From a virus, in the IMG/VR virus record IMGVR_UViG_3300020182_000008, positions 102,269 to 166,268 of that record: a DNA stretch of 64,000 bases; one strand, given 5' to 3'. The notes below the pieces were generated by a model that worked only from the letters and a program-made list of their open reading frames with translations, searched no databases and was not told the origin of the DNA. This document shows positions 7,900-44,091 of this stretch, in pieces; position 1 is the stretch's first letter; the number at the start of each line of letters is the position of its first letter. The position numbers and the translations under genes are program-made.

Positions 7900-8148
7900 A
7901 TGCCTAAAGTAAAAGAAGATTGGTCAACAAGATCAATTACAACCCCCGAAGGAATTAAAATTACCTTTTTCAACAACAAACTTCACAATTGGAATGGTCC
8001 TGCTATAGTTTACAATGATGGCAGTAGAAGAAAATCTGAATACTATCTATATGGTATCCAAAGAACTAAAGACGATTGGTTAGAATTTAGACGAGATCGT
8101 AATGGTGTCCCTCCGGACAAGAATCCACAAGTACAATCAAGATTTTAA
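7900..8148 (+). CDS. Small hypothetical protein with MORN-like segment
   Basis: The 82-residue protein contains NKLHNWNGPAIVYNDGSRR then SEYYLYGIQ, resembling the NGPAxxyxDGxxxYYxxG pattern of MORN or antitoxin-type repeats; only one repeat is visible. A host-type promoter precedes it. The stop is one base from the start of the nucleotidyltransferase gene, so the two are likely co-expressed. Function unknown. Confidence 0.65.
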   Translation: MPKVKEDWSTRSITTPEGIKITFFNNKLHNWNGPAIVYNDGSRRKSEYYLYGIQRTKDDWLEFRRDRNGVPPDKNPQVQSRF

Positions 8149-8149
8149 T

Positions 8150-8569
8150 ATGAGAAAAGCCGTTATAGTGAGTGGGTACTTCAACCCACTCCATAAGGGC
8201 CATCTAGAGTTATTTAGAACGGCCCGAGAATTTAGTGATGATTATTTAATTGTAATTGTAAATTCTGATTTACAAAGAGAATTAAAAGGTTCTAAAGAAT
8301 TCCAAGACGAGAATGAAAGACTAGAAATAGTCAAATCAATCAAATACGTTAGCGAAGCAAGAATCTCACAAGATTTAGATAAAACACAATGCGAAACCCT
8401 AAGACAAATTTACAATGATTATGGTAAAATTTGGGACTTACATTTCGCAAATGGTGGTGATCAAGATAACAAATCTATACCAGAAAGCGTGGTTTGTGAA
8501 AAACTAGGTATTAAATTAATAGATGGGTTTGGTGATAAAATTCAAAGTAGTAGTTGGTTATTAAAATAG
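8150..8569 (+). CDS. HxGH-type nucleotidyltransferase (NMNAT / HldE-C / cytidylyltransferase-like)
   Basis: The start at 8150 is preferred over the in-frame ATG at 8102 inside the previous gene. The 139-residue product matches the single-domain nucleotidyltransferase fold: VSGYFNPLHKGHLELF has the HxGH signature (H15-x-G-H18), followed by DYLIVIVNSDLQRELKG. The C-terminal HFANGGDQD and IQSSSWLLK correspond to the ISSSxL-type ATP-contact motif. Family members join nucleotides to NMN, heptose-1-phosphate or glycerol-3-phosphate; the substrate is not certain. The next gene is a NadR-kinase-like P-loop protein, which would fit NAD salvage. Confidence 0.8.
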   Translation: MRKAVIVSGYFNPLHKGHLELFRTAREFSDDYLIVIVNSDLQRELKGSKEFQDENERLEIVKSIKYVSEARISQDLDKTQCETLRQIYNDYGKIWDLHFANGGDQDNKSIPESVVCEKLGIKLIDGFGDKIQSSSWLLK

Positions 8570-8575
8570 TAAAGT

Positions 8576-9106: not shown

Positions 9107-9107
9107 A

Positions 9108-9117
9108 TATTTATAAT
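9108..9117 (+). promoter_or_regulatory. Late-type element AATATTTATA
   Basis: 13 bases before the ATG at 9131. No -33 box. Confidence 0.6.
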
Positions 9118-9130
9118 AAAATATTATATC

Positions 9131-9826: not shown

Positions 9827-10194
9827 ACAGAATAAATACAGTTATAATTTGTATTGCGGCTATTGCTATATTCTATATCTTAAATAAAGAATCGGATATA
9901 GACATAACCCAATATGAAACTGAAATTAACCTTTTACAAATTCAATTAAATGAATTACAAGAGGTTAACGACAGTTTACAAACTGTAGAAAAGGAATTAG
10001 AAGCCAAAATGGCTTCTTATGATAATACCATTAGAAATTTAAAAGGTCAAATAAATGTTATCAAAAAAGAAACTAAACGCAAACTTGATTCTGTTGATCA
10101 GTTTGGTGATGATGAGCTGGAACAGTTTTTCGCAAAGCGATACAAGCAGCTCAACGATTCAATTAATAAAACCAGTAGCGAAACTGGTAATTAA
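9823..10194 (+). CDS. Spanin-like membrane-anchored coiled-coil protein
   Basis: The 123-residue protein has an N-terminal signal anchor (TVIICIAAIAIFYIL, residues 5-19) followed by an almost continuous coiled coil from about residue 30 to 120. This is the architecture of inner-membrane spanins (Rz type), which span the periplasm during lysis. The gene overlaps another membrane-protein gene in a different frame by 140 bases, as Rz/Rz1 pairs do. No lysis genes lie next to it, so the assignment is tentative. Confidence 0.6.
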   Translation: MNRINTVIICIAAIAIFYILNKESDIDITQYETEINLLQIQLNELQEVNDSLQTVEKELEAKMASYDNTIRNLKGQINVIKKETKRKLDSVDQFGDDELEQFFAKRYKQLNDSINKTSSETGN

Positions 10195-10483
10195 AGACTT
10201 AATTCAGTTCGATGGTTTAACTCAAGAAATGCAATCAATGCAAACCATCCTATCTGAGACAAATCAAAAATTAATTATTCAAGGAGAATTGGTATCTAAT
10301 TTAAGAATACAGGTATTAAATACCCAAAGCATGTTAGAGAAAAAAGATAACCAATTAAATTCTCAAAAAAACGCTACTATTTCTCTACAAAAGTCATTAA
10401 AAAAAGAAAGACGAAAAACCAAATTATATAAAATCACCTCTACAATTGGAGGTGCGGCTATTCTTCTACTTTTAGTACAATAA
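10055..10483 (+). CDS. Secreted coiled-coil protein with C-terminal membrane helix
   Basis: The 142-residue product starts inside the previous gene. It has a signal peptide, LNANLILLISLVMMSWNSFS, with likely cleavage after SFSQ, a form common in Bacteroidetes. A coiled-coil middle follows, then a C-terminal hydrophobic segment, IGGAAILLLLVQ, after a basic stretch. A signal at one end and a membrane helix at the other resembles unimolecular spanins, but there is no lipobox Cys. Partner of the upstream spanin-like protein, or an independent envelope protein. Confidence 0.6.
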   Translation: MLSKKKLNANLILLISLVMMSWNSFSQSDTSSSTIQLIKPVAKLVIKDLIQFDGLTQEMQSMQTILSETNQKLIIQGELVSNLRIQVLNTQSMLEKKDNQLNSQKNATISLQKSLKKERRKTKLYKITSTIGGAAILLLLVQ

Positions 10484-10487
10484 ACAC

Positions 10488-25088: not shown

Positions 25089-27218
25089 ATGAGCAACCAT
25101 AGAAAAATAAGCACCCAAGGAATTGATAGTGGTAGTATTATCTACCCAGAACACGTTTTAAGAGCAATTGACGCCTTAAATGGTGATGCTGGACCTTATG
25201 ATCTTGTTATATCTGGTTCATTAACTTCAACGGGTCCACAATTTATTTCTTCAGGTAGTTTAATTGAAAATAATAATGCTCCTGCCGCTTTAATGTATAA
25301 CACCTCTTCAGGTGACATTTATTATAGTACAGGTAGTTTAGGTGGAGGAAGTGGTGTAGTAGGTACAAATGGTACCTCTGGAACCTCTGGAACCTCTGGT
25401 ATAGATGGAACCTCTGGAACTTCTGGAAACACAGGTACATCTGGTACATCAGGTACAGACGGAACTTCTGGAACAAGTGGTACAAACGGTACTTCTGGTA
25501 CTTCTGGAGCAGATGGAAATTTATTTACAACAACTTCATCCACTTCAATATCAATTGCTACAGGAGCCCAATCCCTTAATGTAGCTACAGGATTAGCTTA
25601 TATTAATGGTCATGGTATATTAATAGCATCTGCAGCAAACTCAGCTAATTTTATGCTAGGTAAAGTTACAGGATACAATTCCAATACTGGTGCTATGTCC
25701 GTATCTATACAAACCATTGGTGGTAGTGGAACTTACTCAAATTGGAATGTAAGTTTAGAATCAGCCCCTGGTACTTCTGGTACAAGCGGAACAAGCGGGA
25801 CTTCAGGAACAAATGGTACTTCAGGTACAAATGGAACATCAGGTACCGATGGTAGTTCAGGTAGCTCAGGAAGTTCAGGATCAAGTGGTACATCAGGTAC
25901 ATCAGGTACTAGTGGTACTTACTCAGGTACTTCAAGTACATCTTTAGCAATTGGAACTGGATCTACTTCATTAACCGTAGAAACTGGTTTATCATTTGCT
26001 GCAGGACAATCAGTAATAATCCAAGAAAATGGAAATACTGCTAATTATATGATTGGTAAAGTCACCACATATAATAGCGGAACAGGTGCCTTAACAGTTA
26101 ACATTACAAGTACAGGAGGAACCGGAACAATTTCATCTTGGACAATAGAATTAGGTTCAGGAGATGGTACTTCAGGTACATCTGGTTCTTCAGGAAATTC
26201 AGGAACATCCGGCACTTCAGGTACAAACGGTACTTCAGGAACAGATGGTTCATCAGGTACTAGTGGAGAAAATGGAACTAACGGAACTAGTGGTACTTCA
26301 GGAACAAACGGAACATCTGGTACAAATGGTACAGATGGCACTTCAGGAACAAATGGTACTTCTGGTACAGACGGGACTTCAGGAACAACACCTGAAGCAC
26401 AATTTACAGGATCATATACTGGTTCATTTACAGGAGATGGTACAGGTTTAACCGGCGTGGCTTCATCCACAGGTTCTTATACAGGATCATTTACAGGTAG
26501 TATATTAGTAGACGATGCTTCTGGTTCATTTAGTGGATCATTTGAAGGAGATGGATCTAATTTAACAGGACTTGTAGCTGGTATAAGTACAATATATAAC
26601 ACACAAGTAAGATACGAGGCATTAAACGCTGGAAACAGTGGTGCTGATGGTAGAGTAGAAATTTTATCTACAGGTACTGTATATGGTGGTTTAACTTGGT
26701 CTAGATCAGGTACTACCCTAACTATTACAAAAACTAATCATGGTTTATCCACAGGAGATTATATTGTAATAAGAAACATGAATTCAGATTATACTTATGT
26801 TTCTGTAACAGCAACTAATTCTAATACATTAACTTGTACTGTAGCCGATAGTGGAGGAACATCTGGAACTGAAGGAGCGTATGTACCCGCATTTAAAGCA
26901 AGTTCATATACACAAAACGGTGTAACCATTACATCACCTAATACCGGAGATTGCCAAGTAGATTCTATTCAAATTACTACACCTACTAAAACAAACAGTA
27001 ACTTTAATTTGATAATGCCTAGTTCAGTATCAAATGGTGCTGGTGGTAATAATAGTTTATACTATCAAAACCCTCCATTAATACAAGTATGGGCTTTAAG
27101 TAATGGTAACCAAAATTCATCCGCAGTAATAACATTAAATACTTCAAGTAATTTTAATCAATTTGAAGTAGGTGGTTTAGCATCACTTGTAAAAAGTTTA
27201 ATTAGATTAACATTCTAG
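25089..27218 (+). CDS. Collagen-like tail or head fiber (GTS-repeat)
   Basis: The 709-residue fiber opens with an N-terminal cap, [20 protein letters not shown], that it shares with the fiber at 32426. Three blocks of Gly-X-Y triplets follow, almost all GTS, GTN, GTD or GSS with no proline (about residues 92-140, 228-280 and 358-436). They are separated by two homologous beta domains of about 90 residues ([20 protein letters not shown] and [19 protein letters not shown]). Next come GSFTGSF-type repeats and a C-terminal beta domain. A trimeric host-contact fiber is likely. The Thr/Ser-dense stalk is a potential glycosylation substrate. Confidence 0.8.
25360..25515 (+). repeat. Gly-Thr-Ser collagen-like repeat block 1
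   Basis: Tandem 9-base units encode GTS, with GTN, GTD or GID variants. Boundaries are approximate. Confidence 0.8.
25770..25925 (+). repeat. Gly-Thr-Ser collagen-like repeat block 2
   Basis: Tandem Gly-X-Y triplets (GTS, GTN, GSS) lie in the same fiber. Boundaries are approximate. Confidence 0.8.
26161..26396 (+). repeat. Gly-Thr-Ser collagen-like repeat block 3
   Basis: This is the longest Gly-X-Y block of this fiber, about 78 residues. Boundaries are approximate. Confidence 0.8.
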
Positions 27219-27219
27219 A

Positions 27220-29172
27220 ATGGCATATAGAGACCAACCATTTATAGGTGCAGTTAGTGCCGATAGCATATTAAAAGAAAACTTTATAATTGCTACTGGT
27301 AATTTTGCTAGTGCTTCTAACCAAATTGCTGATTTTAGTGTTTCATCTGGTGATGAAAATTTATTAAGAGTAGGTCAAACTATTTACTCTGTAGGAGGTG
27401 CTGTTCCTACAAGTGCTACTATTACAAACATAAATGGTAGTTTAATTACTTTAGACACCCCATCAGTTGGAACTATTACGTCGGATACAATTGGTATATC
27501 TCTACCCTCAGGATCTTATTTATTTCAATCTGCTTCTTTTACTGATCCTAATAATGAAATTACTGTAGGAGATATTACAGGTAGTAACACTGATCCCTCA
27601 TATGATTATGCTATTTTAGGTGTAGCTAAACGAAATAATGCTACTAGAAAAGGTGTATTTCATATCTATAAAATTTCTGAAGTAGTACAAACTAATATAG
27701 GTGGTTCTGAATTATCATTTTTTGTAGAATGGGGAGAAGAAGGAACCGAAGCTGATTCAGGAGATATTTTACAAACTTCTGAAGAAACTGTTGCAATTGT
27801 AAATTTAACCGATTCAGGTTCAATAGCACCTGGATTTTCAAGAGCAATTGCTGGTTTAGAAAATATTAAAGATGGCTCAGAATATGCTGGATTTAATGTA
27901 GCAATATCCCAATATCTATCTGATATATCAGGTTCATCAGGAGGTACTTCAGCAACAGGTTCATTTACAGGATCATTTACAGGTTCAATTTTAGGAGATG
28001 TTTTAGGTACTGCTTCTATAGCAGATTTTGCTACTACTGCTTCTTATATATCAACTGCTAGTTTTTCAGATAGTGCTACAAGTGCTTCATATGCTGAAAC
28101 CTCATCTATCCAATACGATTCAGGTTCAGGTACTATTACAGGATTAGACGAGATAAAAATTAATGATTTTGATGATAACGTAGGTGTTACATTTCAAGAT
28201 AGTAAATTAACACTAACATTTGGCTCACCAACTGTACCTTCTATCTCAAGTTTTTTTAATAGTGGGTTTGATACAAATAGATTTAATTTAGTAGAAGACG
28301 ATTCTACTGTTACTGCTAACTGGAGTAATGGTGGTTATACTTTTTTAAGTGCTTCTATCTACACAGGAAGTATAGAATTAACTCATAGTTTAGATGCTGG
28401 TGATACTAATTTAACATTAGCTTTAACTACATCAGGTTCACAAAGGTATTTCTTATATTATACTGCTTCAAGTCCCTTAGACAATACAGAATATTACTTA
28501 TCACAAACTTTAACTAGTAACTTAAGTAAAACAAACCCAACGAATCCATCAATATCACCTACCCCAGCAGTACAATTAGGTGCTTCATCTAATCAAATAG
28601 AACAAGGGGGTACAGGTAGTATAGCATTTACAAGTGCATACGGAAGTTCAAATGGATGGGATCAAGTATCATTAGTAAATACCCCAGTTGCAACACCTTT
28701 AGAAGTAACAGGTTCAGCTACTGGTTCAAATAGTTTAAGTATTCAAGCAGTAGCAAGTTATGAATCACCCGATGGAGATAATAATCCACAATTAACTACG
28801 AATAGAACAGCAACAACTACCTATAGTAAAATACGTAGTGTAAGATATGGTGCTTCAGCAACAACAGCATTTACACAAACTCAATACGAAGATTTAGGAG
28901 CTTGGGATACAACATTAGGAGGAAATATAGGTACTATAGATAAAGGTAACACTTCCCCATCAGGAGATAGTTTAACTATTACTTGGAGTGGAGATAAATA
29001 CCATTATATAGTATATGATAGTAATAGAAGTGATTTAACTAATATTTCTACAGGAGGATTTGGAGTAATAGGACAGTTTACTAAAACTACAGTAGGAGAC
29101 TATACAGTATATAGAACTAATGACTTACAAGCAGGAGGTGGTAGTACTAGTATAACCTATGATTTAACATAA
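27220..29172 (+). CDS. Fiber protein with GSFTGSF and ASFADSATSASYA repeats
   Basis: The 650-residue protein starts two bases after the collagen-like fiber. Its N-terminus, MAYRDQPFIGAVSADSILKE, probably attaches to the virion. Near residue 245 it has the repeated motif [15 protein letters not shown], then alternating small-residue repeats (TTASYISTASFSDSATSASY) typical of beta-helical phage fibers. The C-terminal third is Thr/Ser-rich beta sequence. It contains no S74 chaperone and few charged residues. A structural fiber part is the likely role. Confidence 0.7.
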   Translation: MAYRDQPFIGAVSADSILKENFIIATGNFASASNQIADFSVSSGDENLLRVGQTIYSVGGAVPTSATITNINGSLITLDTPSVGTITSDTIGISLPSGSYLFQSASFTDPNNEITVGDITGSNTDPSYDYAILGVAKRNNATRKGVFHIYKISEVVQTNIGGSELSFFVEWGEEGTEADSGDILQTSEETVAIVNLTDSGSIAPGFSRAIAGLENIKDGSEYAGFNVAISQYLSDISGSSGGTSATGSFTGSFTGSILGDVLGTASIADFATTASYISTASFSDSATSASYAETSSIQYDSGSGTITGLDEIKINDFDDNVGVTFQDSKLTLTFGSPTVPSISSFFNSGFDTNRFNLVEDDSTVTANWSNGGYTFLSASIYTGSIELTHSLDAGDTNLTLALTTSGSQRYFLYYTASSPLDNTEYYLSQTLTSNLSKTNPTNPSISPTPAVQLGASSNQIEQGGTGSIAFTSAYGSSNGWDQVSLVNTPVATPLEVTGSATGSNSLSIQAVASYESPDGDNNPQLTTNRTATTTYSKIRSVRYGASATTAFTQTQYEDLGAWDTTLGGNIGTIDKGNTSPSGDSLTITWSGDKYHYIVYDSNRSDLTNISTGGFGVIGQFTKTTVGDYTVYRTNDLQAGGGSTSITYDLT

Positions 29173-29182
29173 TATATAGCAG

Positions 29183-30052
29183 ATGGCAATTACTTTACCT
29201 GGTGGCTTTAGGATAACGAATAACGAAGCAGTTGATTCTAGAATAAGTGTAGCTGACCAATCAGCACGTTTAGGATTTTCTGCTGCTAACGTATATGAAG
29301 GTTTACTTGTTTATCAACAAGATACAGATGAAATATACGTTTTAACTGATACTTCCGATCCTACAGATAATGATAATTGGAAAAAGATATATCCTGTAGC
29401 ATCAATGACAGGATCATTTAGTGGATCATTTACTGGTTCATTTGATGGTTTAATAGATAGTGCTTCATTTGCTGAAACAGCATCTTACGCTATGTATGCT
29501 GTATCTGCTTCACATGAAATAGTTCACGAAACATCCTCTTCATTTGCTGAAACAGCTTCATTTGCACAAGGTGGAGATGGTGAATTTACTGGTTCCTTTA
29601 CTGGTTCCTTTTCAGGTTCAAACTATTCTACAGACTTTACATTTGATGGTGATACTTTAATTGTATCAGGTAACGTGTTTGTAGATGGAACATTAGATGC
29701 TGCAACTAAAAACTTTAAAATACAACACCCTACAATGGAAGGGTATTATCTACTCCACTCATCATTAGAAGGACCTGAACGTGGAATTTACCATAGAGGT
29801 AAATTAAGTGTCAGTAATATTATCCACTTACCAGACTATTGGAAAGAATTACCTGTAGATGATACTGATATTACAGTACAACTTACTCCAATTGGTAATG
29901 CTTGCCATCATTGGGTTAAAAGAGTTACTAAAGAAGAAATTGAAATAGAATGTGAGTGTGGTAAACCAAGTTGTTTTTATATTGTACATGCCCAACGTTA
30001 TAATGAGGGTAAATTTGAAATATTAGAACCAAAACGCAACAAAAGCTTGTAA
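29183..30052 (+). CDS. Short fiber protein with conserved C-terminal KIQHPTMEGYYLLHSS domain
   Basis: The 289-residue protein has an N-terminal module, ITLPGGFRITNNEAVDSRIS to VYEGLLVYQQDTDEIYVL, found at the start of many phage fibers. A GSFSGSFTGSFDG repeat and ASFAETASYA repeats follow. The C-terminal 120 residues form a domain beginning NFKIQHPTMEGYYLLHSS and LEGPERGIYHRG, like the IDHP...HSSxEgP domains of other fiber proteins, with a Cys-rich end (ECECGKPSC). The glycosyltransferase follows from its own promoter. Confidence 0.7.
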   Translation: MAITLPGGFRITNNEAVDSRISVADQSARLGFSAANVYEGLLVYQQDTDEIYVLTDTSDPTDNDNWKKIYPVASMTGSFSGSFTGSFDGLIDSASFAETASYAMYAVSASHEIVHETSSSFAETASFAQGGDGEFTGSFTGSFSGSNYSTDFTFDGDTLIVSGNVFVDGTLDAATKNFKIQHPTMEGYYLLHSSLEGPERGIYHRGKLSVSNIIHLPDYWKELPVDDTDITVQLTPIGNACHHWVKRVTKEEIEIECECGKPSCFYIVHAQRYNEGKFEILEPKRNKSL

Positions 30053-30082: not shown

Positions 30083-32386
30083 ATGAAGGTTCAAGCTCAC
30101 ACGAGTTTTATAGGTACTACTGGCTACGCAAATCATGCGCAGTCATTTTTTACTGAACTTGATAAATTAACCCCAACTAAAGTACGAAATTTTACAGTAG
30201 GTAAATCTTGGCAAGGACCTAACCATACACCTCACGATAAAGAACCCTATATTACACCTCAAATGAAGAAGATGCTTCATCTTCAAACATTATTTAATAA
30301 TGATGGTTCTAGAAGCAATTTACCAATATACTCTTATAAAGACGGCTATCGTGCTGACATTGATATTATACTTGAAGAACACGACCACCATTACTTCTAC
30401 GATGCATATGATGGTTATAAAATAGGATATAACGTTTGGGAATCAACTCGCTACTCCGAACAATTTTTTCAACAACTACTTACTTTAGATGAACTTTGGG
30501 TGCCAACTAAATGGCAAAAACAAATCTCTATAGAACAAGGATACCCAGAAGATAAAATATTTGTTATACCTGAAGGAGTAGACGGTAGAGTATTTAAACC
30601 TACTTCTAAACCTAAGAAAAAAGATAAATTTCAATTTGTTATAGTTGGAAGATGGGACTATAGAAAAGGTATAAAAGAAAGCATAGAAGGTTTCCTCAAA
30701 GCATTCCCAGATAACCAAAGTGTTGAATTATTATTAAACGTTGAAAATCCATACCCTGTAGATGGTATGAACTCTACAGAAGAACGTTTAAAATATTATG
30801 GGTTAGAAGATGATAGAATAAAAATATTAAAGTTTTTAGATAGAAAACAATATATTTCATTACTACAAAACGCTAATGTGATAATATCTTGTGCCCGTGC
30901 TGAAGGATGGAATTTACCCTTAATTGAATCTTTAGCTTGTGGTATCCCTTCAATTTATACTAAATGTTCAGGTCAACTCGAATTTACTAAAAGTGAAGGA
31001 TTAGGAATAGATATATTAGGTGAAGAACCTGCTACAAATGGTAAAAATCTAACATATGAACACAATATACCAGGTAACTTTTATACACCTGATTTAGACC
31101 ATTTAGTGGATCAAATTAGAGATTCATATGAAAATTATGCTTATTGGAAAGATTGGTATTTGAAACGTTCTAAAGAAATACGACAAAAATTTTCTTGGAA
31201 AAATCAAGCTAAAAAAGCATACGAACGTTTACAACAAATCGATATTAAACCAAAGAAAAAATTACCTAGATTAGAGGTAAATTTTGCAGATGGTCCCTAT
31301 GCCTGTTTAAGAGATGCAGAACAAGAATATTTAATAGATTTTGTAAATCAGGATACAGGTAAAAGCGAATATTCTGTTAATTTACAAAATAACCATTGGG
31401 GTAAATCATTCCACAAATTTTTTATAAATTGGGATATTCAAGTTAAAGATAAATTTGGAGAAGTAGTTACATCTCACAAATATAATGCTGCTGGTAAACG
31501 CGTTTATATTGCTTGTGGTTCAAAATCATTAGGAGATACATTAGCTTGGTTCCCTTATGCCTTAGAATTTCAAAATAAACATAAATGTCACGTTATAGTA
31601 TCTACCTTTTGGAATAAATTTTTTAAAAATAAATACCCTGAATTAACATTTGTAGAACCAGGTGAAACTGTACCTAACATATACGCAATGTATGAGTTAG
31701 GATGGTTTTACGATGACAATAAATTAAATGGTTTTAAACAACCCTATGATCCTAAACAATTTACTTTACAACAAACTGCAACTAATATATTAGGATTAGA
31801 ATATAAAGAGGTTTTACCTAAACTAGATTATCAAGTTAAAGAACGTCCTTGGAAAGAAAAATATGTTTGTATCTCACCACACGCTTCAGCAGGTGCAAAA
31901 TACTGGCAACACCCTACAGGATGGCAAGATATAATAAACCACTTAAATAGTAAAGGTTATAAAGTAGTTCAAATATCAAAAGAAAAACACAACGATAGTT
32001 GGGAAAATAGAAAATTACCCCAAAATAAATCCTTTGAAAATATTATAGATGCAACAGGAGACCATCCTATAGAAGATATAATCAATATTATTCACCATTC
32101 AGAATTATATATAGGAGTATCAAGTGGTTTAGCTTGGTTATCGTGGGCAATACAAAAACCCGTAGTAATGGTATCTGGATTTAGTTCAGAATGGACTGAA
32201 TTTAGTACAAAAATCCAACGTATTATAAACAAAAATGTTTGTAATTCTTGTTTTAATAACTTTAAATTAGATGCTGGGGATTGGGATTGGTGTCCAATAC
32301 ATAAAGATACTTCTAGACAATTCGAATGTACTAAAAAAATATTACCCGAAAGTGTAATAGAGGGCATTACTCGCAGCCTTAGTTAA
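30083..32386 (+). CDS. Bifunctional glycosyltransferase: GT4-like plus TibC-like heptosyltransferase domain
   Basis: The 767-residue protein has two GT-B enzymes in one chain. Residues 1-390 are GT4-like: FQFVIVGRWDYRKGIKESIE, then the EGWNLPLIESLACG block (E-x7-E near residues 274-282) that binds the sugar-nucleotide. From about 470 (RVYIACGSKSLGDTLAWFPY) to the end it resembles the heptosyltransferase fold of autotransporter O-heptosyltransferases (TibC/Aah family). It includes HASAGAKYWQHPTGWQDII, YIGVSSGLAWLSWA and the four-Cys motif C720-x2-C723-x13-C737-x11-C749, like the iron-binding cysteines of TibC. It sits between Ser/Thr-rich fiber genes with a non-late promoter. Glycosylation of virion fibers is inferred; modification of host surface glycans is the alternative. 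Confidence 0.8.
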   Translation: MKVQAHTSFIGTTGYANHAQSFFTELDKLTPTKVRNFTVGKSWQGPNHTPHDKEPYITPQMKKMLHLQTLFNNDGSRSNLPIYSYKDGYRADIDIILEEHDHHYFYDAYDGYKIGYNVWESTRYSEQFFQQLLTLDELWVPTKWQKQISIEQGYPEDKIFVIPEGVDGRVFKPTSKPKKKDKFQFVIVGRWDYRKGIKESIEGFLKAFPDNQSVELLLNVENPYPVDGMNSTEERLKYYGLEDDRIKILKFLDRKQYISLLQNANVIISCARAEGWNLPLIESLACGIPSIYTKCSGQLEFTKSEGLGIDILGEEPATNGKNLTYEHNIPGNFYTPDLDHLVDQIRDSYENYAYWKDWYLKRSKEIRQKFSWKNQAKKAYERLQQIDIKPKKKLPRLEVNFADGPYACLRDAEQEYLIDFVNQDTGKSEYSVNLQNNHWGKSFHKFFINWDIQVKDKFGEVVTSHKYNAAGKRVYIACGSKSLGDTLAWFPYALEFQNKHKCHVIVSTFWNKFFKNKYPELTFVEPGETVPNIYAMYELGWFYDDNKLNGFKQPYDPKQFTLQQTATNILGLEYKEVLPKLDYQVKERPWKEKYVCISPHASAGAKYWQHPTGWQDIINHLNSKGYKVVQISKEKHNDSWENRKLPQNKSFENIIDATGDHPIEDIINIIHHSELYIGVSSGLAWLSWAIQKPVVMVSGFSSEWTEFSTKIQRIINKNVCNSCFNNFKLDAGDWDWCPIHKDTSRQFECTKKILPESVIEGITRSLS

Positions 32387-32425: not shown

Positions 32426-34534
32426 ATGGCTAATACAATAAGCACATCGGGCATTCAGAGTGGTAGCGTAATTCACGCCGAGAATGTAACTCGAATTATA
32501 GATGCTCTTTCTGGAACAGCAAACAACAATATCCAAATCTCAGGTTCTTTAGGAATTACAGGAAGTTTTGACATTGGTAGCGGAAGTATAGCAGAAACAG
32601 GAGTAGGAGATGCTCCTCAATTACTTGCTTATAACACAGCTAGTGGAGAAATAACATTTACAAATAGACAATCAACCTCGGGTACCTCTGGTACATCTGG
32701 TACTAGTGGTACATCTGGAACATCTGGTTCTTCAGGTACTTCTGGTACATCTGGTACATCTGGTTCATCAGGCTCTTCAGGAAGTTCAGGTACTTCAGGA
32801 ACAAACGGTACAAATGGTACTTCTGGTACATCAGGTACATCTGGTACTTCAGGAACAAGTGGAGAAAAAGGAGGAGTTGAATATAATTTTGACGATTCTA
32901 CTGGAGATGCCGATCCCGGAAATGGAAATATTAGATATAATACAGCTACTATAGGTACTGTTACTTTTTTATATATAGATAATGTAGATCAAAGATCTAC
33001 AGATCAAACCCAATGGTTTGCTGCTTGGGATGATTCAACTAATACTAATCCCTATGGGTATGTTACTATTACTAGTAGAGATACTGGTAATATTGTTAAT
33101 ATATTTGAAGTTCAAGGCACAGTAACAGCATCCTCAGGATATTATAAAATTCCTGTTATAAATTTAACAGGTACTTTACCTTCAAATGGAGATAAATTAT
33201 CGATCCAATTTTCTAGAACCGGAGATGTAGGTACTTCCGGAACCTCAGGTACCTCTGGTACTTCAGGCCCACTTTCAATAAATGGTGGAACCACAGGATC
33301 CATATTACTATTTTCAGGTAGTACAGGTACTTTAAATGCAAGTAATTTTTTAAATTATGATGCTGATCAATTACAAATTACTTCTTCAAATTCATCATAC
33401 TTAGGTTCAGTTAACATAACTGGATCTTTAGATGTATCTGGTTCAGTAATATTAAGTGGTTCATTTAGCGGTTCATTTGAAGGGTTAATTGATTCTGCTT
33501 CTAATGCTATAAATGCATTAACATCTTCTCATACTTTAGGTACAGCCTCATTTGCAAATAACGCTACTACTGCCTCCCACACTTTTGGAACAGCTAGTAT
33601 AGCAGACCGTGCTACAACAGCCTCTATAGCAGACAATATAAAATCAGGCTTAATTATTTCAGCCTCTTCGATTGCTGTATCAAATAATTTAAGTGTAGAA
33701 GGTACAGCATCATTTGGATATTTAGAAAGTATTACAGGTTCAGCTAAAATAATTGGAGACGCCTTTATTATATTAAATAATAATACACCTGCAGAACGAT
33801 ACGCTGGTTTAGTAGTACAAGATTCAGGTTCAAATAACAATACAGCTTCTATACAGTTTGATGGTCAAACAAATGACTGGTTTTATGAATATACAGATGA
33901 TGGAGGAGCAACAGTAGATCATGCATCAATAATGTTTGGCCCTGCATTTCCTACAAAAGGATCCCCAGTTTTCCCTGCAAGTGAATCTGTACTAGTATCA
34001 GAAGGTGGGCATCATATTACTAGCTCTGCAATGTTTATTAAGAGTGATATTGTAGATATACAATTATCAACCAAAACCACAGGCTCAGTGTTAATATCAG
34101 GTAGTGATCATATCACTACTGGTAGTTTATCTATATCTGGAAGTTTAGGTGTTGGAACTGAAGCATCCGGTGTAGTAGGAGCAATATTGGCAACAAACGA
34201 TGTTGTAGCGTTTGCTTCTTCAGATTTAAGATTAAAATCTAACTTAAATAAAATAGAAAATCCATTAGAGAAAATAAATCAACTTTCGGGATATGAATTT
34301 GATTGGATTCCTATGGAAGGTATTCACATTCACTCAGGACACGATATTGGAGTAATAGCCCAAGAAGTAGAAAAAGTATTTCCTGAAGTCGTTGCTGATA
34401 GAGAAAATGGATATAAAGCTGTAAAATACGAAAAATTAGTATCGGTTCTAATAGAAGGAATAAAAGAATTAAAAACAGAGCTTGATCAATTAAAAACTGA
34501 ACATGCTATTATAAAAGATAGATTTAATATATAA
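32426..34534 (+). CDS. Collagen-like fiber with C-terminal Peptidase_S74 chaperone
   Basis: The 702-residue fiber shares its N-terminal cap ([20 protein letters not shown]) with the fiber at 25089. A block of about 67 residues of GTS/GSS triplets follows, then a beta domain, a second short GTS block, and [15 protein letters not shown] plus [19 protein letters not shown] repeats. The last 120 residues are an intramolecular chaperone of the S74 family: [15 protein letters not shown] with the Ser-Asp catalytic pair, [17 protein letters not shown] and [21 protein letters not shown]74 domains trimerise the fiber and then cut themselves off. It overlaps the next gene by one base. Confidence 0.85.
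32677..32875 (+). repeat. Gly-Thr-Ser collagen-like repeat block
   Basis: Tandem GTS, GSS and GTN codons lie near the N-terminus of the S74 fiber. A shorter block lies at 33232-33267. Boundaries are approximate. Confidence 0.8.
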
Positions 34535-34960: not shown

Positions 34961-37900
34961 ATGGCAGAATGGAAAAAGATAGTCGTCTCTGGTAGCGACA
35001 TATCCCAATTAAACAACGACAGCGGATATTTAGTTGCTGGTGGAACAATCGATTCCGCTTCAGTCGCTGATAGAGCTACCTTACTATCCCCAGATGCCAC
35101 AGCATCTTTTGCTGATAGTGCTTCCTTTGCTCGAATGGCCCTCGAAGGATCTGGATCTTTCAGTGGTTCATTTGAAGGAGATGGATCAGGATTAACAGGA
35201 TTAGCAACAAACTTAACAGTTGATGGTGATACCGGTACACAAGATGTAGATCTTATTACAGATGATTTACAAATTCTTGGTACTACAAACGAAATTGAAA
35301 CTGCTGTAACTAAAGTTGGTAACGATGTAAAAGTTACACTTGGTTTACCTGATAATATTACAGTAACAGCTTCCTTTGCTGATTTAGCAGGAACTGTTCA
35401 TGATGGTAATATTACAACTGCAAAACTTGCAGATGGTGCCGTAACAACAGCTAAGATTACTGATGCTAACATTACTACCGCAAAAATTGCGGATGCTAAT
35501 GTAACAGATGCCAAATTAGCCTCAGATTCAGTAACAACTGTAAAAATTGTAGATGCTAACGTAACAGCTGCTAAATTAGCAACTGATTCTGTTGAAACTG
35601 CCAAAATTGTTGATGCAAACGTAACAACTGCAAAACTTGCAGATGACGCTGTAACAACAGTAAAAATTACAGATGCAAATGTTACCGCAGCCAAATTAGC
35701 AACAAACTCTGTTGAAACAGCTAAGATTGTAGACGGTAATGTAACAACAGCTAAAATTGCAGATGCAAACGTAACAGATGCTAAACTAGCTTCTAACTCT
35801 GTAACAACTGATAAAATTGTAGACGCTAATGTTACTACAGGTAAATTAGCAGATAGTGCCGTTACAACAGCTAAAATCAATGATGGTGCTGTAACAAATG
35901 ACAAAATTACAGATGGTACAATTGCCAACGTAAAATTAGTAAATGATAGTGTTACACTAGGTAGCACAGAAATAGATTTAGGACAAACTGTAACTGAAAT
36001 TTCTGGATTAACCAGTATTTCTGCTACAACTGGTAGCTTCGTATTACAAGTATTCGAATCCTCTTCTACAATTATTACCTCTGGTTCAAACATCTTTGGT
36101 GATAAACAAGACGATATACAACAAATTACAGGTTCATTAAAACAATCTGGTAGTTTTACACTCTCAGGTAGTTTACTTCAATCAAACGGTGTAATTAGTG
36201 GTTCATTCCAAGGTGACGGTTCAGGATTAACTGGAGTTACTGTAGATACACTAAATAATGCTCTTACGGATGGTAATGGTATTACAGACTTTACATTTGA
36301 TGGTTCAGCTACTGCAACAGTAGCAGTAGAAGCAGATGGAGCTACTTTAACAGTAGGTGCCAATGGAGTTAAAGTTTCAGACAGTGGAATTGATACTACT
36401 CAATTAGCTGATGATGCTGTAACGACAGTTAAAATCACTGACGCAAATGTAACAACTGCAAAAATTGCAGATTCTAATGTTACTACTGCTAAAATTGCAG
36501 ATTCTAATGTTACTACTGCTAAAATAGCTGATTTAAACGTAACTACAGAAAAACTCGCAGCTAATGCAGTAACTACTGCTAAAATTACAGACGCAAATGT
36601 AACAGCTGCTAAATTAGCAACCAACTCAGTAGAAACTGCAAAAATTGTAGACGCTAACGTTACAACAGCTAAAATTGCTGATGCCAATGTTACTACAGGT
36701 AAACTTGCAGACAATGCTGTAACAACAGCTAAAATTACAGATGCAAACGTTACTGCGGCTAAACTTGCAAGCAATTCAGTTGAAACTGCAAAAATTGTAG
36801 ACGCTAACGTAACAGCTGCTAAATTAGCAACGGATTCAGTTGAAACAGCTAAAATCGTAGACGGTAATGTTACCACTGCAAAACTTGCAGACGATGCTGT
36901 AACTACAATTAAGATTACAGACGCTAATGTTACTGCAGCTAAATTAGCTACAGATTCAGTTGAAACAGCAAAAATTGTTGATGCAAATGTAACAACTGCA
37001 AAAATTGCAGATAGTGCTGTAACAACAGCTAAAATCGCTGATGGTGATGTAACAAATGCTAAATTAGCTAACGATAGTGTAATATTAGGTACTACAGAAA
37101 TTGATTTAGGTCAAACTGTAACAGAAATCTCAGGATTAACTAGTATTTCAGCTGTAACAGGTAGCTTTGTATTACAGGTTTACGAATCCTCTTCTACGAT
37201 TATTACTTCAGGATCAAACATCTTTGGTAATGATCAAAACGATATTCAACAAGTAACAGGATCATTAAAACAATCAGGAAGTTATACACTTTCAGGAAGC
37301 TTATTACAATCAAACGGTGTAATTAGCGGTTCATTTATTGGTGATGGTTCAGGATTAACAGGAGTTGCTGTAGATCAATTAAATAATTCTCTTACAGACG
37401 GAAATGGTATTGCAGATTTCACATTCGATGGAAGTGGTGCTGCTACTGTAGCTGTTGAAGCAGATGGATCTACCTTAACAGTAGGTGCTAGTGGTGTAAA
37501 AGTTTCTGATGCAGGAATTGACACTACTCAATTAGCCGACAATGCTGTAACAACTGCTAAAATTACCGACTTAAATGTAACAACTGGTAAACTTGCAGAC
37601 GGTGCAGTAACAACAGCAAAAATCACTGATGCTAACGTTACAACAGCTAAAATTGCTGATGCTAACGTTACAACAGCTAAAATTGCTGATGCAAATGTAA
37701 CAGTTGACAAATTAGCAACTGATTCAGTAACTACAGCTAAAATTGTAGATGCCAATGTTACAACTGCCAAAATTGCAGACGCTAACGTTACTACAGGTAA
37801 ATTAGCTGATGATGCTGTAACGACAGTTAAAATCACAGATGCAAACGTAACAGCTGCTAAATTAGCAACAGATTCTGTTGAAACAGCTAAGATCGTTGAT

Positions 37901-39808
37901 GCAAATGTTACTACTGCCAAACTCGCTGACAATGCCGTAACAACGGTTAAAATCACTGATGCTAACGTAACTACCGCAAAAATTGCTGATAGTAATGTTA
38001 CAACTGCAAAAATTGCAGATAGTGCAGTAACAAACGATAAAATTACAGACGGTACGATTGCTAATGCTAAATTAGTAAACGATAGTCTTACATTTGGTGT
38101 AACAGAACAAGCACTTGGTTCAACTATAACAGAAATTAAAGGTTTAACTTTAATTAGTGCTGATACAGGTACATTTGTTCACCAAATTTTCGAATCCTCT
38201 TCTACAATTATTACTTCCGGATCAAACGTATTTGGTAATGATGCAGGAGATATTCAACAAATTACTGGTTCATTAAAACAATCAGGTAGTATTACATTAT
38301 CTGGTAGTTTATTACAATCACATGGTGTAATTAGTGGTTCATTTATTGGAGATGGTTCAGGATTAACTGGATTAGCTACAATATTAACCATTGATGGTGA
38401 TTCAGGAGGTACCTCAACAGTAGATTTACAAACACAAAATCTAGATATTGCTGGTACAGCAAACGAAATTGAAACTTCAGTTTCAGGTCAAACTATTACT
38501 ATTGGTTTACCTACTAATATTACAGTAACAGCTTCATATGCTGATACAGCAAGTATTGCTAGAACTGCAGATTCAGCTTCAAACTCAACAAATGCTATTT
38601 CAGCCTCAGCTACAGTAGCGGGTCAATTATTCCCAACAACAGAGGGATTAAATGGTCAAGCTCTTGTAACAGATGGTGCTGGTCAATTAATATATGCTGA
38701 TGCATTCGGAACTGGTTCAACTAAGAAATTAAACCAAACCGTAGCAGCAGAAACTTGGTCGTTTGTTCACAATTTAGATGAAGAATATCCTATAGTACAA
38801 ATTTGGGATACTACTGGAGATATGATTCTTCCAGACAGAATTGTAACTATAAATGCCAATACTGTTGAAATTATATTCCCTGTGCCTGTTGCCGGTATCG
38901 CCGCTGCAATGGTAGGTGGAATGGGAATTTCAGCTTCTGAAGCAACCCATGCTCAAACAGCCTCAGTCGCTGATCGTGCTACAGAATTAAGCGTAGATGC
39001 AACAGCTTCATTTGCTGATGTAGCAGGAACAGTTCACGCTGGTAATATTACTACTACTGAATTAGCTGATAATGCAGTAACAAATGCTAAAATTACAGAT
39101 GGTACAATTGCCAACGTAAAATTAGTAAATGATAGTGTTATTCTTGGTACAACAGAAGTAGATTTAGGTGCCACTTCAACCACTTTAGTAGGATTAACTA
39201 ACGTAGAAAGTACTATGTTCAGTGGTTCCTTCAAAGGTGATGGTTCCTTATTAACTGGATTAGTAACAGAATTAGATATTGCTGGTGATACAGGTACAGA
39301 TGCTTTAGATCTTAAAGTTGATACATTAAATGTAGTCGGTACTACTGGTGAAATTGAAACCGCTGTAACAAATAATCAAATTCAAATTGGATTACCTAGT
39401 AACGTAACAGTTGGAAACGACTTAACTGTAACAGGTGATGCAACTATTGCTGGAGATTTAGTAGTAGGTGGTGCTATAGTAAGTGCTTCTTCGTTGGAAG
39501 TTGCAGATCAATTTATTATATTAGCATCCGGTTCAAATGGTGCGATTGATGGTGGTATCATTATTAATCAAGTCGATGATGATCCAGATGGTAGAGGTAA
39601 AGCATTTGCTTACGATTCTAGTGCAAACAGATGGGCATTACAATCAGAATTGGTTGATTCTGCCACAACAATTACACCAGATGCGTATATGGGTGTTATT
39701 CAAGAAAGTGCAGGTGCTCCAAGTTCCGATCCAACATATGGTGGAACAAATGGTAAAGGTACGATTTTTGTAGATACCTCAAATAACGAAGCTTATATTT
39801 ACATATAA
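34961..39808 (+). CDS. Long tail fiber with three decapeptide-repeat modules
   Basis: At 1615 residues this is the largest protein in the window. The N-terminus MAEWKKIVVSGSDISQLNND matches the start of the fiber at 40138 (MPNWKKIVVGDSN). Three modules follow, each with a stack of ten-residue repeats (consensus DANVTTAKIA) and then a conserved spacer, FESSSTIITSGSNIFG to SGSLLQSNGVISGSF and GDGSGLTG. The C-terminal part has a domain (WSFVHNLDEEYPIVQIWDTT) also found as the separate gene at 40969, and a beta-rich end (VADQFIILASGSNGAIDGG). There is no S74 domain. A long beta-structured host-contact fiber is likely. Confidence 0.8.
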   Translation: MAEWKKIVVSGSDISQLNNDSGYLVAGGTIDSASVADRATLLSPDATASFADSASFARMALEGSGSFSGSFEGDGSGLTGLATNLTVDGDTGTQDVDLITDDLQILGTTNEIETAVTKVGNDVKVTLGLPDNITVTASFADLAGTVHDGNITTAKLADGAVTTAKITDANITTAKIADANVTDAKLASDSVTTVKIVDANVTAAKLATDSVETAKIVDANVTTAKLADDAVTTVKITDANVTAAKLATNSVETAKIVDGNVTTAKIADANVTDAKLASNSVTTDKIVDANVTTGKLADSAVTTAKINDGAVTNDKITDGTIANVKLVNDSVTLGSTEIDLGQTVTEISGLTSISATTGSFVLQVFESSSTIITSGSNIFGDKQDDIQQITGSLKQSGSFTLSGSLLQSNGVISGSFQGDGSGLTGVTVDTLNNALTDGNGITDFTFDGSATATVAVEADGATLTVGANGVKVSDSGIDTTQLADDAVTTVKITDANVTTAKIADSNVTTAKIADSNVTTAKIADLNVTTEKLAANAVTTAKITDANVTAAKLATNSVETAKIVDANVTTAKIADANVTTGKLADNAVTTAKITDANVTAAKLASNSVETAKIVDANVTAAKLATDSVETAKIVDGNVTTAKLADDAVTTIKITDANVTAAKLATDSVETAKIVDANVTTAKIADSAVTTAKIADGDVTNAKLANDSVILGTTEIDLGQTVTEISGLTSISAVTGSFVLQVYESSSTIITSGSNIFGNDQNDIQQVTGSLKQSGSYTLSGSLLQSNGVISGSFIGDGSGLTGVAVDQLNNSLTDGNGIADFTFDGSGAATVAVEADGSTLTVGASGVKVSDAGIDTTQLADNAVTTAKITDLNVTTGKLADGAVTTAKITDANVTTAKIADANVTTAKIADANVTVDKLATDSVTTAKIVDANVTTAKIADANVTTGKLADDAVTTVKITDANVTAAKLATDSVETAKIVDANVTTAKLADNAVTTVKITDANVTTAKIADSNVTTAKIADSAVTNDKITDGTIANAKLVNDSLTFGVTEQALGSTITEIKGLTLISADTGTFVHQIFESSSTIITSGSNVFGNDAGDIQQITGSLKQSGSITLSGSLLQSHGVISGSFIGDGSGLTGLATILTIDGDSGGTSTVDLQTQNLDIAGTANEIETSVSGQTITIGLPTNITVTASYADTASIARTADSASNSTNAISASATVAGQLFPTTEGLNGQALVTDGAGQLIYADAFGTGSTKKLNQTVAAETWSFVHNLDEEYPIVQIWDTTGDMILPDRIVTINANTVEIIFPVPVAGIAAAMVGGMGISASEATHAQTASVADRATELSVDATASFADVAGTVHAGNITTTELADNAVTNAKITDGTIANVKLVNDSVILGTTEVDLGATSTTLVGLTNVESTMFSGSFKGDGSLLTGLVTELDIAGDTGTDALDLKVDTLNVVGTTGEIETAVTNNQIQIGLPSNVTVGNDLTVTGDATIAGDLVVGGAIVSASSLEVADQFIILASGSNGAIDGGIIINQVDDDPDGRGKAFAYDSSANRWALQSELVDSATTITPDAYMGVIQESAGAPSSDPTYGGTNGKGTIFVDTSNNEAYIYI
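35402..35958 (+). repeat. Decapeptide-coding repeat array 1
   Basis: Period 30 bases, consensus DANVTTAKIA with alternation to DSVETAKIV. The array encodes about 18 units. End positions are approximate. Confidence 0.85.
36392..37090 (+). repeat. Decapeptide-coding repeat array 2
   Basis: The same 30-base period as array 1, in the second module of the long fiber. End positions are approximate. Confidence 0.85.
37520..38098 (+). repeat. Decapeptide-coding repeat array 3
   Basis: The same 30-base period, in the third module. It includes nearly exact tandem copies near 37630-37690. Confidence 0.85.
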
Positions 39809-41346: not shown

Positions 41347-44091
41347 ATGAAATCATACGGTATAGCAATGGTAGCCGGTACCTTAGCGATGGATGGAAAT
41401 GCATCCTCTAATCTATCCGGATCATTTACGGGATCTTTTTCAGGTAGTACAACAGATGAGTTTTATGCTTCTGGTGCTTTTAGTGGATCCTATGAAGGTG
41501 ATGGAGCCTTATTAACGGGAATCGTAGCTACTGATCTAGATATTGATGCCTTTGGAGATGATTTAACCGGTACTACCATTACGGGGGCAGATAGACTAAT
41601 TGTATCCGATGCTTCAGAAGGAGGTTCTGAAGGTAGAATGAATATATCCCAGTTAGCCCCAGCTTTAGTTGGAGCGGGTTTAGATGCAAGTCAAGGTAGT
41701 CTTAGAATTAATGCTACTGCAGCAGGAAATGGATTATCTGGAGGTGATGGTTCAGCTTTAGCAGTAAATGTAGATGATTCTTCTATTGAAATTGATACGG
41801 ATTCATTAAGAGTTAAAGCAAGTGGTATTACCAATGCTATGTTAAATGGTTCAATTGCTAATGATAAACTAGCAAATGATGGTATTACTATTGCAGGAGT
41901 TGATACTTCACTAGGTGGAACCATTACCGCAGATACAATTGCAGGTCAAATCTCTGCTGATACAATCACAAACTCTCAACTAGCTAATGATAACATCACA
42001 ATTGCTGGTGCTTCAACTGCACTAGGGGGCACTATTACCGCAGATACAATTGCAGGAGCAATTTCCAATGATACTATTACTAATGCACAATTAGCAAATG
42101 ATTCTATAACAATTAATGGAACTTCTACTGCATTAGGTACTTCTTATAGTGTAACAAAAGCAGATGTAGGATTAGGAAATGCAGATAACACATCAGATGC
42201 TAGTAAACCAGTATCAACTGCTACTCAAACTGCATTAGACCTAAAAGCACCATTAGCTTCACCAACATTTACTGGAACAGTAAGTGGTGTAACTAAAGCA
42301 CACGTAGGACTTGGAAACGTTGATAACACTGCAGATTCTGCTAAACCAGTATCTACTGCACAACAAACCGCATTGAACTTGAAAGCTAATTTAGCTTCTC
42401 CAACATTTACTGGAACTGTTATAGCACCAACACCTTCAAATGGTGATGATTCTACTAAAGTTGCTACTACTGCATTTGTAATGCAAGAAGTATCTGATTT
42501 ATTAGGTGGTGCACCAGCAGCGTATGATACATTAATTGAACTCTCTGCTTCTCTTGCAAATGGAGATTCTGATGTGGTTGCTTTAACAGCTGAAGTAGCT
42601 ACTAAAGCTACAAAAGCAAATAACTTAAGTGATTTAACTAACGCATCTACAGCAAGAACAAACTTAGGGTTAGGTTCAATTGCAACATTAAGTAGTATTG
42701 ACATTTCAACTAATACAAACTTAGCTGCTAGTACAGGTATTACCTTAACAGGAGATACATTAACAACAAATGATGGACAAATTGTTCACGATAATTTAAG
42801 TGGATTTGTAGCAGATGAACATATTGCCCATAGTGGGGTAACACTAACAGCAGGAAATGGTTTAACAGGAGGAGGTACTATAGCTGCAAGTAGAACATTT
42901 GCAGTAGGAGCAGGTACACTTATAGATGTAGCAGCAGATACCGTAAATGTAGATCTATCAGAACTATCAACTTCAACAACTAATGGGGATGGAGATTATT
43001 TTGTAGTAGTAGATACATCAAATGCTCAAAGAAAATTAACAAAAGCAAATATTGCTTTATCTGAATTTAATAACGATTCTGGATGGACATCGAATGTAGG
43101 AGACATTACAGGTGTAACAGCAGGTAACGGTTTAACAGGAGGTGGCTCATCAGGAGCTGTAACAGTTAATGTTGTTGCGGGTACAGGTATTAGTGTTGCT
43201 GCAGATTCAGTGTCTACAAATGATGGGCAAATTGTCCACGATAACTTATCAGGATTTGTAGCTAACGAACACATTGATCACTCTGGAGTATCAATTACCG
43301 CAGGTAATGGTTTAACAGGTGGTGGTACAATTAATTCTACTAGAACATTAAACATTGGTGAAGGAACAGGTATCACAGTCGCAGCAGACACTATATCTAC
43401 AAATGATGGAGAAATTGTCCACGATAACTTATCAGGATTTGTAGCTAACGAACACATTGATCACTCTGGAGTATCAATTACCGCAGGTAATGGTTTAACA
43501 GGTGGTGGTACAATTAATTCTACTAGAACATTAAACATTGGAGCTGGTACAGGTATTGATGTAGCAGCGGATGCTATTTCAGTAGACGTATCAGATTTTA
43601 TGTCTAATGGTGCAAATAATCGTATTCTTACAGCAACTGGTACGGATGCAATGAATGCTGAAGCAAACCTAACATTTGATGGTACAACTTTTCTAGTTTC
43701 TGCTGCAAAATCCCGAACAGATGGTCTTGGGGTAGGTATTGCACCATCATCAACTGTAGGGGTAATTCAAGCTTCAAATGATGTTATAGCATTCGCTTCT
43801 TCAGATGAAAGATTAAAAGAAAACGTAACATCTATTGAAAGTGCTTTAAATAAAGTAGAATCTTTAAGAGGTGTTGAATTTGATTGGATCGCTAATAAAG
43901 AAATCCACCCTAACGAGGGACATGATTTAGGAGTAATTGCTCAAGAAGTTGAAGCAGTGCTACCAGAATTAGTTCAAACTAGAGAAAACGGATATAAAGC
44001 AGTTAAATACGATAAATTAACAGCCGTATTAATTGAGGCAGTAAAAGAATTATCTGCTAGAGTAAAAACTTTAGAAGGATATCATAATTAA
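41347..44091 (+). CDS. Large fiber with C-terminal Peptidase_S74 chaperone
   Basis: The 914-residue fiber has an N-terminal GSFTGSFSGSTTDEFYASGA and GSYEGDGALLTGI. Repeats follow (NDTITNAQLANDSITINGTS; two copies of VGLGNADNTSDASKPVST-like sequence), then VHDNLSGFVANEHIDHSG with a GNGLTGGGTI repeat. Two copies of the latter are identical over 130 bases. The C-terminal S74 chaperone contains [40 protein letters not shown] and YKAVKYDKLTAVLIEAVKEL, with the Ser-Asp pair intact. Self-cleavage after trimerisation is expected. Confidence 0.85.
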   Translation: MKSYGIAMVAGTLAMDGNASSNLSGSFTGSFSGSTTDEFYASGAFSGSYEGDGALLTGIVATDLDIDAFGDDLTGTTITGADRLIVSDASEGGSEGRMNISQLAPALVGAGLDASQGSLRINATAAGNGLSGGDGSALAVNVDDSSIEIDTDSLRVKASGITNAMLNGSIANDKLANDGITIAGVDTSLGGTITADTIAGQISADTITNSQLANDNITIAGASTALGGTITADTIAGAISNDTITNAQLANDSITINGTSTALGTSYSVTKADVGLGNADNTSDASKPVSTATQTALDLKAPLASPTFTGTVSGVTKAHVGLGNVDNTADSAKPVSTAQQTALNLKANLASPTFTGTVIAPTPSNGDDSTKVATTAFVMQEVSDLLGGAPAAYDTLIELSASLANGDSDVVALTAEVATKATKANNLSDLTNASTARTNLGLGSIATLSSIDISTNTNLAASTGITLTGDTLTTNDGQIVHDNLSGFVADEHIAHSGVTLTAGNGLTGGGTIAASRTFAVGAGTLIDVAADTVNVDLSELSTSTTNGDGDYFVVVDTSNAQRKLTKANIALSEFNNDSGWTSNVGDITGVTAGNGLTGGGSSGAVTVNVVAGTGISVAADSVSTNDGQIVHDNLSGFVANEHIDHSGVSITAGNGLTGGGTINSTRTLNIGEGTGITVAADTISTNDGEIVHDNLSGFVANEHIDHSGVSITAGNGLTGGGTINSTRTLNIGAGTGIDVAADAISVDVSDFMSNGANNRILTATGTDAMNAEANLTFDGTTFLVSAAKSRTDGLGVGIAPSSTVGVIQASNDVIAFASSDERLKENVTSIESALNKVESLRGVEFDWIANKEIHPNEGHDLGVIAQEVEAVLPELVQTRENGYKAVKYDKLTAVLIEAVKELSARVKTLEGYHN
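43229..43358 (+). repeat. 130-bp perfect direct repeat, copy 1
   Basis: Identical by eye to 43412-43541, with 183-bp (61-codon) periodicity, inside the S74 fiber. A third, diverged copy begins near 42779. Confidence 0.9.
43412..43541 (+). repeat. 130-bp perfect direct repeat, copy 2
   Basis: Identical by eye to 43229-43358; a recent in-frame duplication or gene-conversion product. Confidence 0.9.

Follow-up and report, generated by a model that had tools for sequence, protein, structure and literature searches.

The window, a 64,000-nucleotide stretch of phage DNA (bases 102269-166268 of a virus record with a length of 166,268 bp), encodes a fused glycosyltransferase that probably O-glycosylates the phage's own fibers. 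This enzyme of 767 amino acids (30083..32386, plus strand, as are all window features given below) combines a GT4 domain with a TibC/Aah-type O-glycosyltransferase domain. It is a member of the TibC/Aah family, possesses intact sites and the iron-finger cysteines, is subject to purifying selection, belongs to a separate phage clade and is associated with collagen-like GXY repeats. According to the proposed mechanism, a cytoplasmic enzyme featuring two active sites would modify fibers of the same phage. The TibC/Aah-type domain would transfer the first sugar from ADP-heptose or another nucleotide sugar to serine hydroxyls of G-(T/S)-S triplets in adjacent fibers, priming these serines before or during virion assembly, and the fused GT4 domain would add a further sugar. 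Completion of the glycan in related phages would fall to the methyltransferases and other glycosyltransferase domains of the same polypeptide. The role of the GXY serines as acceptors, glycan extension by GT4 and the presence of the product in the virion are inferred; protection or stiffening of the flexible fibers or tuning of adhesion are likely candidate roles.

Within the phage genome, genes encoding terminase, portal, major head protein, adaptor and tail sheath were found. The closest isolates with respect to the portal protein are Flavobacterium phage immuto (58%) and Microcystis phage Mel-JY01 (51%), and a bacteroidotal host is therefore likely.

The preliminary description had recognized a double-domain enzyme of GT4 and TibC/Aah origin, and matches to PF00534, PHROG 2170, TIGR04414 and TibC bear this out. 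The GT4 domain (GT-B, retaining type; residues 1-385, 30083..31237) was identified by PF00534 (E 1.4e-12) and by PHROG 2170 (E 2.3e-38, residues 9-385). Both glutamates of its EX7E motif (E274-E282, 30902..30928) are invariant in an alignment of 21 orthologue rows. The C-terminal, GT9-like domain (residues 401-763, 31283..32371) scored 319.6 bits against TIGR04414 (curated equivalog cut-off 200), covering positions 16-372 of the 374 model positions. TIGR04414, named 'autotransporter strand-loop-strand O-heptosyltransferase', represents the TibC/Aah family, referred to as BAHT in the following. TibC (4rb4/4rap) is the best sequence match to the C-terminal half (E 6e-55) and also matches it by fold. 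Moreover, a predicted beta-strand region at about residues 395-470 (31265..31492) appears to correspond to the N-terminal barrel of TibC, as suggested by the modelled strands and by the TIGR04414 match starting at model position 16. Comparison with four orthologues yielded dN/dS values of 0.11-0.19; the enzyme gene is under strong purifying selection.

An AlphaFold2 model was built from 21 orthologues (mean pLDDT 83), and its pTM of 0.54 renders the relative placing of the GT4 and TibC-like halves uncertain. Foldseek searches with this predicted structure ranked TibC first (E 5e-30, TM 0.80 normalised to TibC length), followed in the PDB by the glycosyltransferase 3oy2 of the chlorovirus PBCV-NY2A and then by GT4 enzymes such as MshA and PimA. 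At the iron finger the model is poor, with pLDDT < 50 at residues 721-736.

A PF01075 match reveals a remote kinship of the C-terminal domain with LPS heptosyltransferases. Membership in the corresponding groups (RfaQ, RfaF, RfaC, types I-III) was rejected since scores of about 17-41 bits are far below the NCBIfam cut-offs of 134.6-569. The preliminary description had named placement in an LPS heptosyltransferase group devoid of the Cys cluster as the outcome speaking against its interpretation; the domain was found in the TibC/Aah family, with all four cysteines. These results bear on the alternative that host surface glycans (O-antigen or LPS core) are the target of the enzyme and that the resulting receptor change excludes other phages, in which case its proximity to fiber genes would reflect the usual clustering of host-interaction genes. 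Pelagimyophage host-recognition clusters of marine T4-like phages likewise contain glycosyltransferase genes among tail fiber genes, and these have been interpreted as altering the host O-chain (PMC7029224); however, they are mostly of the GT8 and LPS types. The PF01075 kinship and a nucleotide-sugar/glycosyltransferase island in the same genome are further points in favor of a host-directed function. This alternative is nevertheless considered unlikely, given about 320 bits to a protein-modifying family versus about 17-41 bits for LPS heptosyltransferases, the retained iron-finger cysteines and the genomic association described below.

For TibC, residues D110, T226, K230, R286 and W305, the four iron-finger cysteines and the thumb were described as functionally important (PMC4358343). 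In the alignment, the catalytic base corresponds to Asp485 (TibC Asp-110; 31535..31537), the residue contacting the donor phosphate to Lys606 (TibC Lys-230; 31898..31900) and the heptose-binding residue to Trp685 (TibC Trp-305; 32135..32137). The TibC donor residue Thr-226 is represented by S602, Ser being common at this position in both clades. Among 71 non-redundant phage domains, the Asp, the Trp and the four cysteines are invariant, and the Lys is retained in 70. The putative iron-finger cysteines C720, C723, C737 and C749 (32240..32329) align with the TibC iron ligands C339/342/358/370. Their C-x2-C-x13-C-x11-C motif, already compared with TibC in the preliminary description, recurs in all relatives compared (71/71 from phages, 71/71 from bacteria) and is therefore not a chance occurrence.

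Deviations from TibC concern the donor site and the thumb. Arg-286 of TibC touches adenine, is required and accounts for ADP-sugar specificity (PMC4358343); in the window enzyme it is replaced by Ile666 (32078..32080). The arginine is retained in 66/71 bacterial members and in 41/71 phage domains, and its loss mostly affects fused proteins, of which 5/29 keep it as compared to 36/42 stand-alone or truncated phage proteins (p 7e-9). An ADP-sugar donor is therefore not assured for the fused forms, and their donor may be of another kind. Based on the curated family model, the C-terminal domain is assigned to BAHT, and the label 'heptosyltransferase' is kept provisional because Arg-286 is absent. 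Of the O-heptosyltransferase proposed previously, the family thus stands, but heptose as the sugar is not assured, considering the exchange of Arg-286 for Ile-666 and its loss in 24/29 fused phage proteins; a heptose as first sugar is possible, if somewhat doubtful. Heptose stereo-selectivity of TibC is set by position 300 (PMC4358343), which corresponds to Ser in the phage enzyme, as in AAH. The TibC thumb is a hydrophobic beta-hairpin with the tip residues Phe-265/Val-266 needed for the active dodecamer (PMC4358343). The window protein contains the thumb insertion; the tip is not conserved in phage members, and a dodecamer ring is therefore not assured for the phage enzyme.

Conservation of the Asp, Lys, Trp and Cys residues nonetheless leads to the expectation that the enzyme is an active transferase. 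Some T4-like phages glucosylate DNA. This background, the loss of Arg-286 and the weakly conserved dodecamer thumb could suggest a DNA-modifying glycosyltransferase, or a structural or carbohydrate-binding TibC descendant devoid of transferase activity. Either role is highly improbable in view of the Asp in 71/71 and the Lys in 70/71 phage domains, the invariant GT4 EX7E motif and the strong purifying selection; furthermore, the 767-aa protein matched no DNA-glucosyltransferase family among Pfam, PHROG and NCBIfam profiles.

The Ser/Thr-rich fiber neighbors noticed earlier were confirmed, since GTS/GSS collagen-like and other Ser/Thr-rich fibers flank the enzyme on both sides. Upstream, a collagen-like fiber of 709 aa with GTS/GSS triplets (25089..27218; PF01391, E 3e-22) represents a candidate acceptor; its 62 triplets are distributed over three runs (about 25344-26390). 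It is followed by a fiber-like protein of 650 aa that is Ser/Thr-rich by composition (28%; 27220..29172) and by a fiber-like protein of 289 aa with TGSF repeats (29183..30052), the gene of which stops 30 bp upstream of the enzyme gene. The second candidate acceptor, a 702-aa fiber (32426..34534), begins 39 bp downstream of the enzyme gene and combines collagen-like GTS repeats (PF01391, 2.2e-8), including one 22-triplet run at about 32681-32878, with a C-terminal Peptidase_S74 chaperone domain (PF13884, 5.1e-17). Further downstream, a fiber-like protein of 1615 aa with decapeptide/pentapeptide-like repeats (34961..39808; PF13599, PF25296) and another tail-fiber protein of 914 aa (41347..44091; PHROG tail fiber matches) are encoded.

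The 1615-aa neighbor is a possible alternative acceptor, and the enzyme might modify this decapeptide-repeat fiber (34961-39808), the capsid or the tail tube in place of the GXY repeats. Established BAHT acceptors are indeed beta-helical repeats (PMC4358343), and capsid and tail tube are glycosylated in mycobacteriophages according to PMC12363180. Modification of such another virion protein is quite unlikely, however, because GXY repeats recur beside the enzyme across lineages, in a count that covered GXY repeats.

In order to describe this recurrence, Ser/Thr-rich GXY runs (G-T/S-S type) of at least ten triplets were counted, the 8-kb counts being limited to fully observed loci. Such a run is located within 8 kb of the enzyme in 32/38 loci of the phage clade, versus 0/34 in the TibC clade, 0/24 for an unrelated phage GT4 (taken from the sugar island of the same phage), 8/32 for major capsid genes and 7/9 for tail sheath genes; six of the seven positive sheath loci also carry BAHT. 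Within 1 kb, a run was detected in 16/57 phage-clade loci as compared to 0/57 for the TibC clade, 0/67 for GT4, 0/61 for capsid and 1/36 for sheath. Co-occurrence of enzyme and GTS-repeat fibers in related phages, a check suggested by the preliminary description, was thus positive against several controls (32/38 versus 0/34, 0/24 and 8/32). Ser/Thr-rich GXY fibers also flank the enzyme in its close orthologues, which share about 70% or higher identity within the domain. By our reading, a GXY gene lies within about 2.5 kb in at least six lineages (window clade; L026/L035/L195/L207; L149; Methylobacter; L059; L057; Mel-JY01). Furthermore, wherever a lineage comprised more than 40 triplets, Ser accounted for 66-98% of the residues at the Y position, which fits the specificity of TibC/AAH for Ser and not Thr (PMC4358343); several phage collagen runs unlinked to the enzyme have Gln or Thr at the third position.

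Record-wide comparisons showed the same tendency; their independent units are lineages rather than loci, and p-values overstate the evidence due to dependence within lineages. Pfam collagen matches occurred in 27/30 BAHT-positive virus records and in 5/18 portal-picked records (Fisher 1.6e-5), the control contigs being shorter; for contigs of at least 40 kb, the values were 21/23 and 3/7 (p 0.016). The portal-picked contigs, mostly short, were dropped as main control and supplemented by tests in which the distance to capsid, sheath or GT4 genes was limited. In a set of 40 mostly capsid-picked contigs, the three with BAHT were all counted among the seven with Ser-type GXY fibers (p 0.0035), where one contig had been added for its GXY run and the run of one BAHT contig was read at another locus of the same contig (L008). 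The four contigs with Ser-rich GXY fibers and no BAHT are all fragments, as are many of the contigs examined. A distance of 147-199 kb separates the enzyme from the detected GXY runs on two long contigs (320,934 and 238,475 bp), and another contig has no GXY run by that criterion. Proximity of enzyme and GXY runs within contigs was moderately significant (Fisher p 0.019; 16 contigs, including two near-copies).

The association extends to bacteria. Methylobacter luteus and Methylobacter sp. BlB1 both possess a gene pair (L055:6932-9119 and L056:6944 onward) in which a phage-clade enzyme of 428 aa begins 56 bp after a GT(S/A/N)-repeat gene, the GTS/GTA/GTN-repeat product of which has an apparent signal peptide. 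The flanking genes in M. luteus look like ordinary chromosomal genes by eye, and the pair resembles the tibA/tibC pairing. Since it occurs in no visible phage context, it weakens the objection that the association merely mirrors phage fiber clusters. Tracking of Ser-rich GXY proteins by the clade even in Methylobacter, together with the 0/24 count for the sugar-island GT4, also argues against modification of host glycans and is consistent with modification of the phage's own fibers.

A BAHT-domain profile detected at least 588 coding stretches in IMG/VR and 121 in about 85,000 bacterial and archaeal species genomes. In a tree of 143 sequences, all 71/71 phage sequences grouped with six sequences from bacterial assemblies on one side, and TibC with 65 bacterial sequences on the other side (100% SH-aLRT support). 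Fusion to GT4 is characteristic of the window clade and Mel-JY01; in other phage lineages, BAHT is fused with FkbM, with Methyltransf_23 or Methyltransf_24, or with a DXD sugar-binding glycosyltransferase plus GT4, and stand-alone phage proteins of about 400 aa constitute another large group. On balance, we are inclined to assume that a change of acceptor took place in the phage TibC branch, with collagen-like G-X-Ser repeats replacing beta-helical autotransporters, that the fusions build elaborated fiber O-glycans, and that this represents a widespread, previously undescribed system also exchanged with bacteria, for example Methylobacter. Three virus contigs (G019, G024 and G025) each carry two or more TibC-like copies. 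A BFVD entry from an uncultured phage bears the title 'Glycosyltransferase Aah/TibC', and the BAHT domain had therefore been annotated in phages before; the open-access literature provided nothing relevant on a phage TibC-like enzyme or on GTS-repeat phage fibers.

Regarding donor supply, the window nucleotidyltransferase considered as sugar activator in the preliminary description exists as a cytidylyltransferase-like protein of 155 aa (8102..8569; PF01467), but its role in the system is unsupported: it reached 41.3 bits against heptose-1-P adenylyltransferase (TIGR02199, cut-off 181.5) and has an AAA_28 neighbor. This arrangement (nucleotidyltransferase, then AAA_28 P-loop protein; 8102-9106) recalls NadR-type NAD salvage. 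Within the parts of immuto and Mel-JY01 that were examined, no homologue of the nucleotidyltransferase was detected. Because of the weak and ambiguous family match, it was rejected as donor maker and kept out of the evidence. No SIS/GmhA-type heptose gene was found in the phage's own genome. Outside the window, the same genome harbors a sugar island of about 22 kb (G000, about 26150-48100; L044:6150-19733 and L045:1-8122) with two GT4, GT2-type and GT10 fucosyltransferase-like genes as well as GDP-mannose 4,6-dehydratase and epimerase genes, the latter two probably representing a GDP-L-fucose route. A DegT sugar aminotransferase, split E1/transketolase-like genes, APS kinase, a HAD-nucleotidyltransferase fusion and, by eye, two sulfotransferase-like proteins are also encoded. 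GDP_Man_Dehyd matches were obtained for 7/30 enzyme-bearing and 3/18 control records and for none in Mel-JY01, a distribution that lends no support to an obligate link between island and enzyme.

Compared with TibC/AAH, which act on beta-helical autotransporters (PMC4358343), the phage enzyme shares the fold, the catalytic Asp, the Lys, the Trp, the four-Cys finger and the N-terminal barrel region, and in both cases the gene adjoins one for a surface-exposed repeat protein, here with a Ser-rich candidate acceptor. It differs in its separate branch, the GT4 fusion, the lost Arg-286 and thumb tip, and the collagen-like fiber neighbors in place of an autotransporter. A second comparison is provided by SgtA of C. 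difficile, which is encoded immediately upstream of BclA3 and glycosylates its collagen-like triplets (PMC7157674). There, too, a glycosyltransferase gene lies beside that of a collagen-like repeat protein whose triplets are O-glycosylated, as proposed for the candidate acceptors here; however, SgtA is a GT-A type enzyme using UDP-GlcNAc and modifies mainly Thr in GPT triplets on the spore surface (PMC7157674). The preliminary description had termed an enzyme dedicated to the phage's own fibers unusual; phage-encoded virion glycosylation has precedents in the mycobacteriophages Che8, Corndog and Myrna (Freeman et al. 2023, as cited in PMC12363180). According to that source, these phages likewise encode the glycosyltransferases acting on their virions, as is proposed here, whereas the phages and enzymes are different, capsid and tail tube are modified in place of collagen-like fibers, and the evidence is experimental rather than inferred. 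The novelty lies in the family of the enzyme, in collagen-like fibers as candidate acceptor and in the fusions; the idea of virion glycosylation itself has precedent.

If the proposed function is correct, a dedicated fiber-glycosylation system would exist in many aquatic phages, the GXY fibers of which are in some cases very large (frames of up to about 4,660 aa). A function would thus be assigned to a group of phage glycosyltransferases usually interpreted as modifying host LPS or phage DNA, and an enzyme family tied so far to bacterial adhesins would gain a second acceptor class. Fiber glycosylation of this kind predicts a directly testable sequence rule, namely Ser at the third triplet position, and enzymes acting on simple GTS peptides would be useful tools for the production of defined O-glycopeptides.

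Further observations concern the collagen-like proteins themselves. On three enzyme-bearing virus contigs (G011, G012 and G014), densely packed collagen-like repeats occur in open frames with a length of about 4,300-4,660 aa. Moreover, 2OG-Fe(II) oxygenase genes, one of them annotated as prolyl 4-hydroxylase, are present in phages with collagen-like fibers (Mel-JY01 146571-147170; L044:4054-4647, 8882-9478 and 9944-10546), and hydroxylation of the collagen-like repeats is a possible function of their products.
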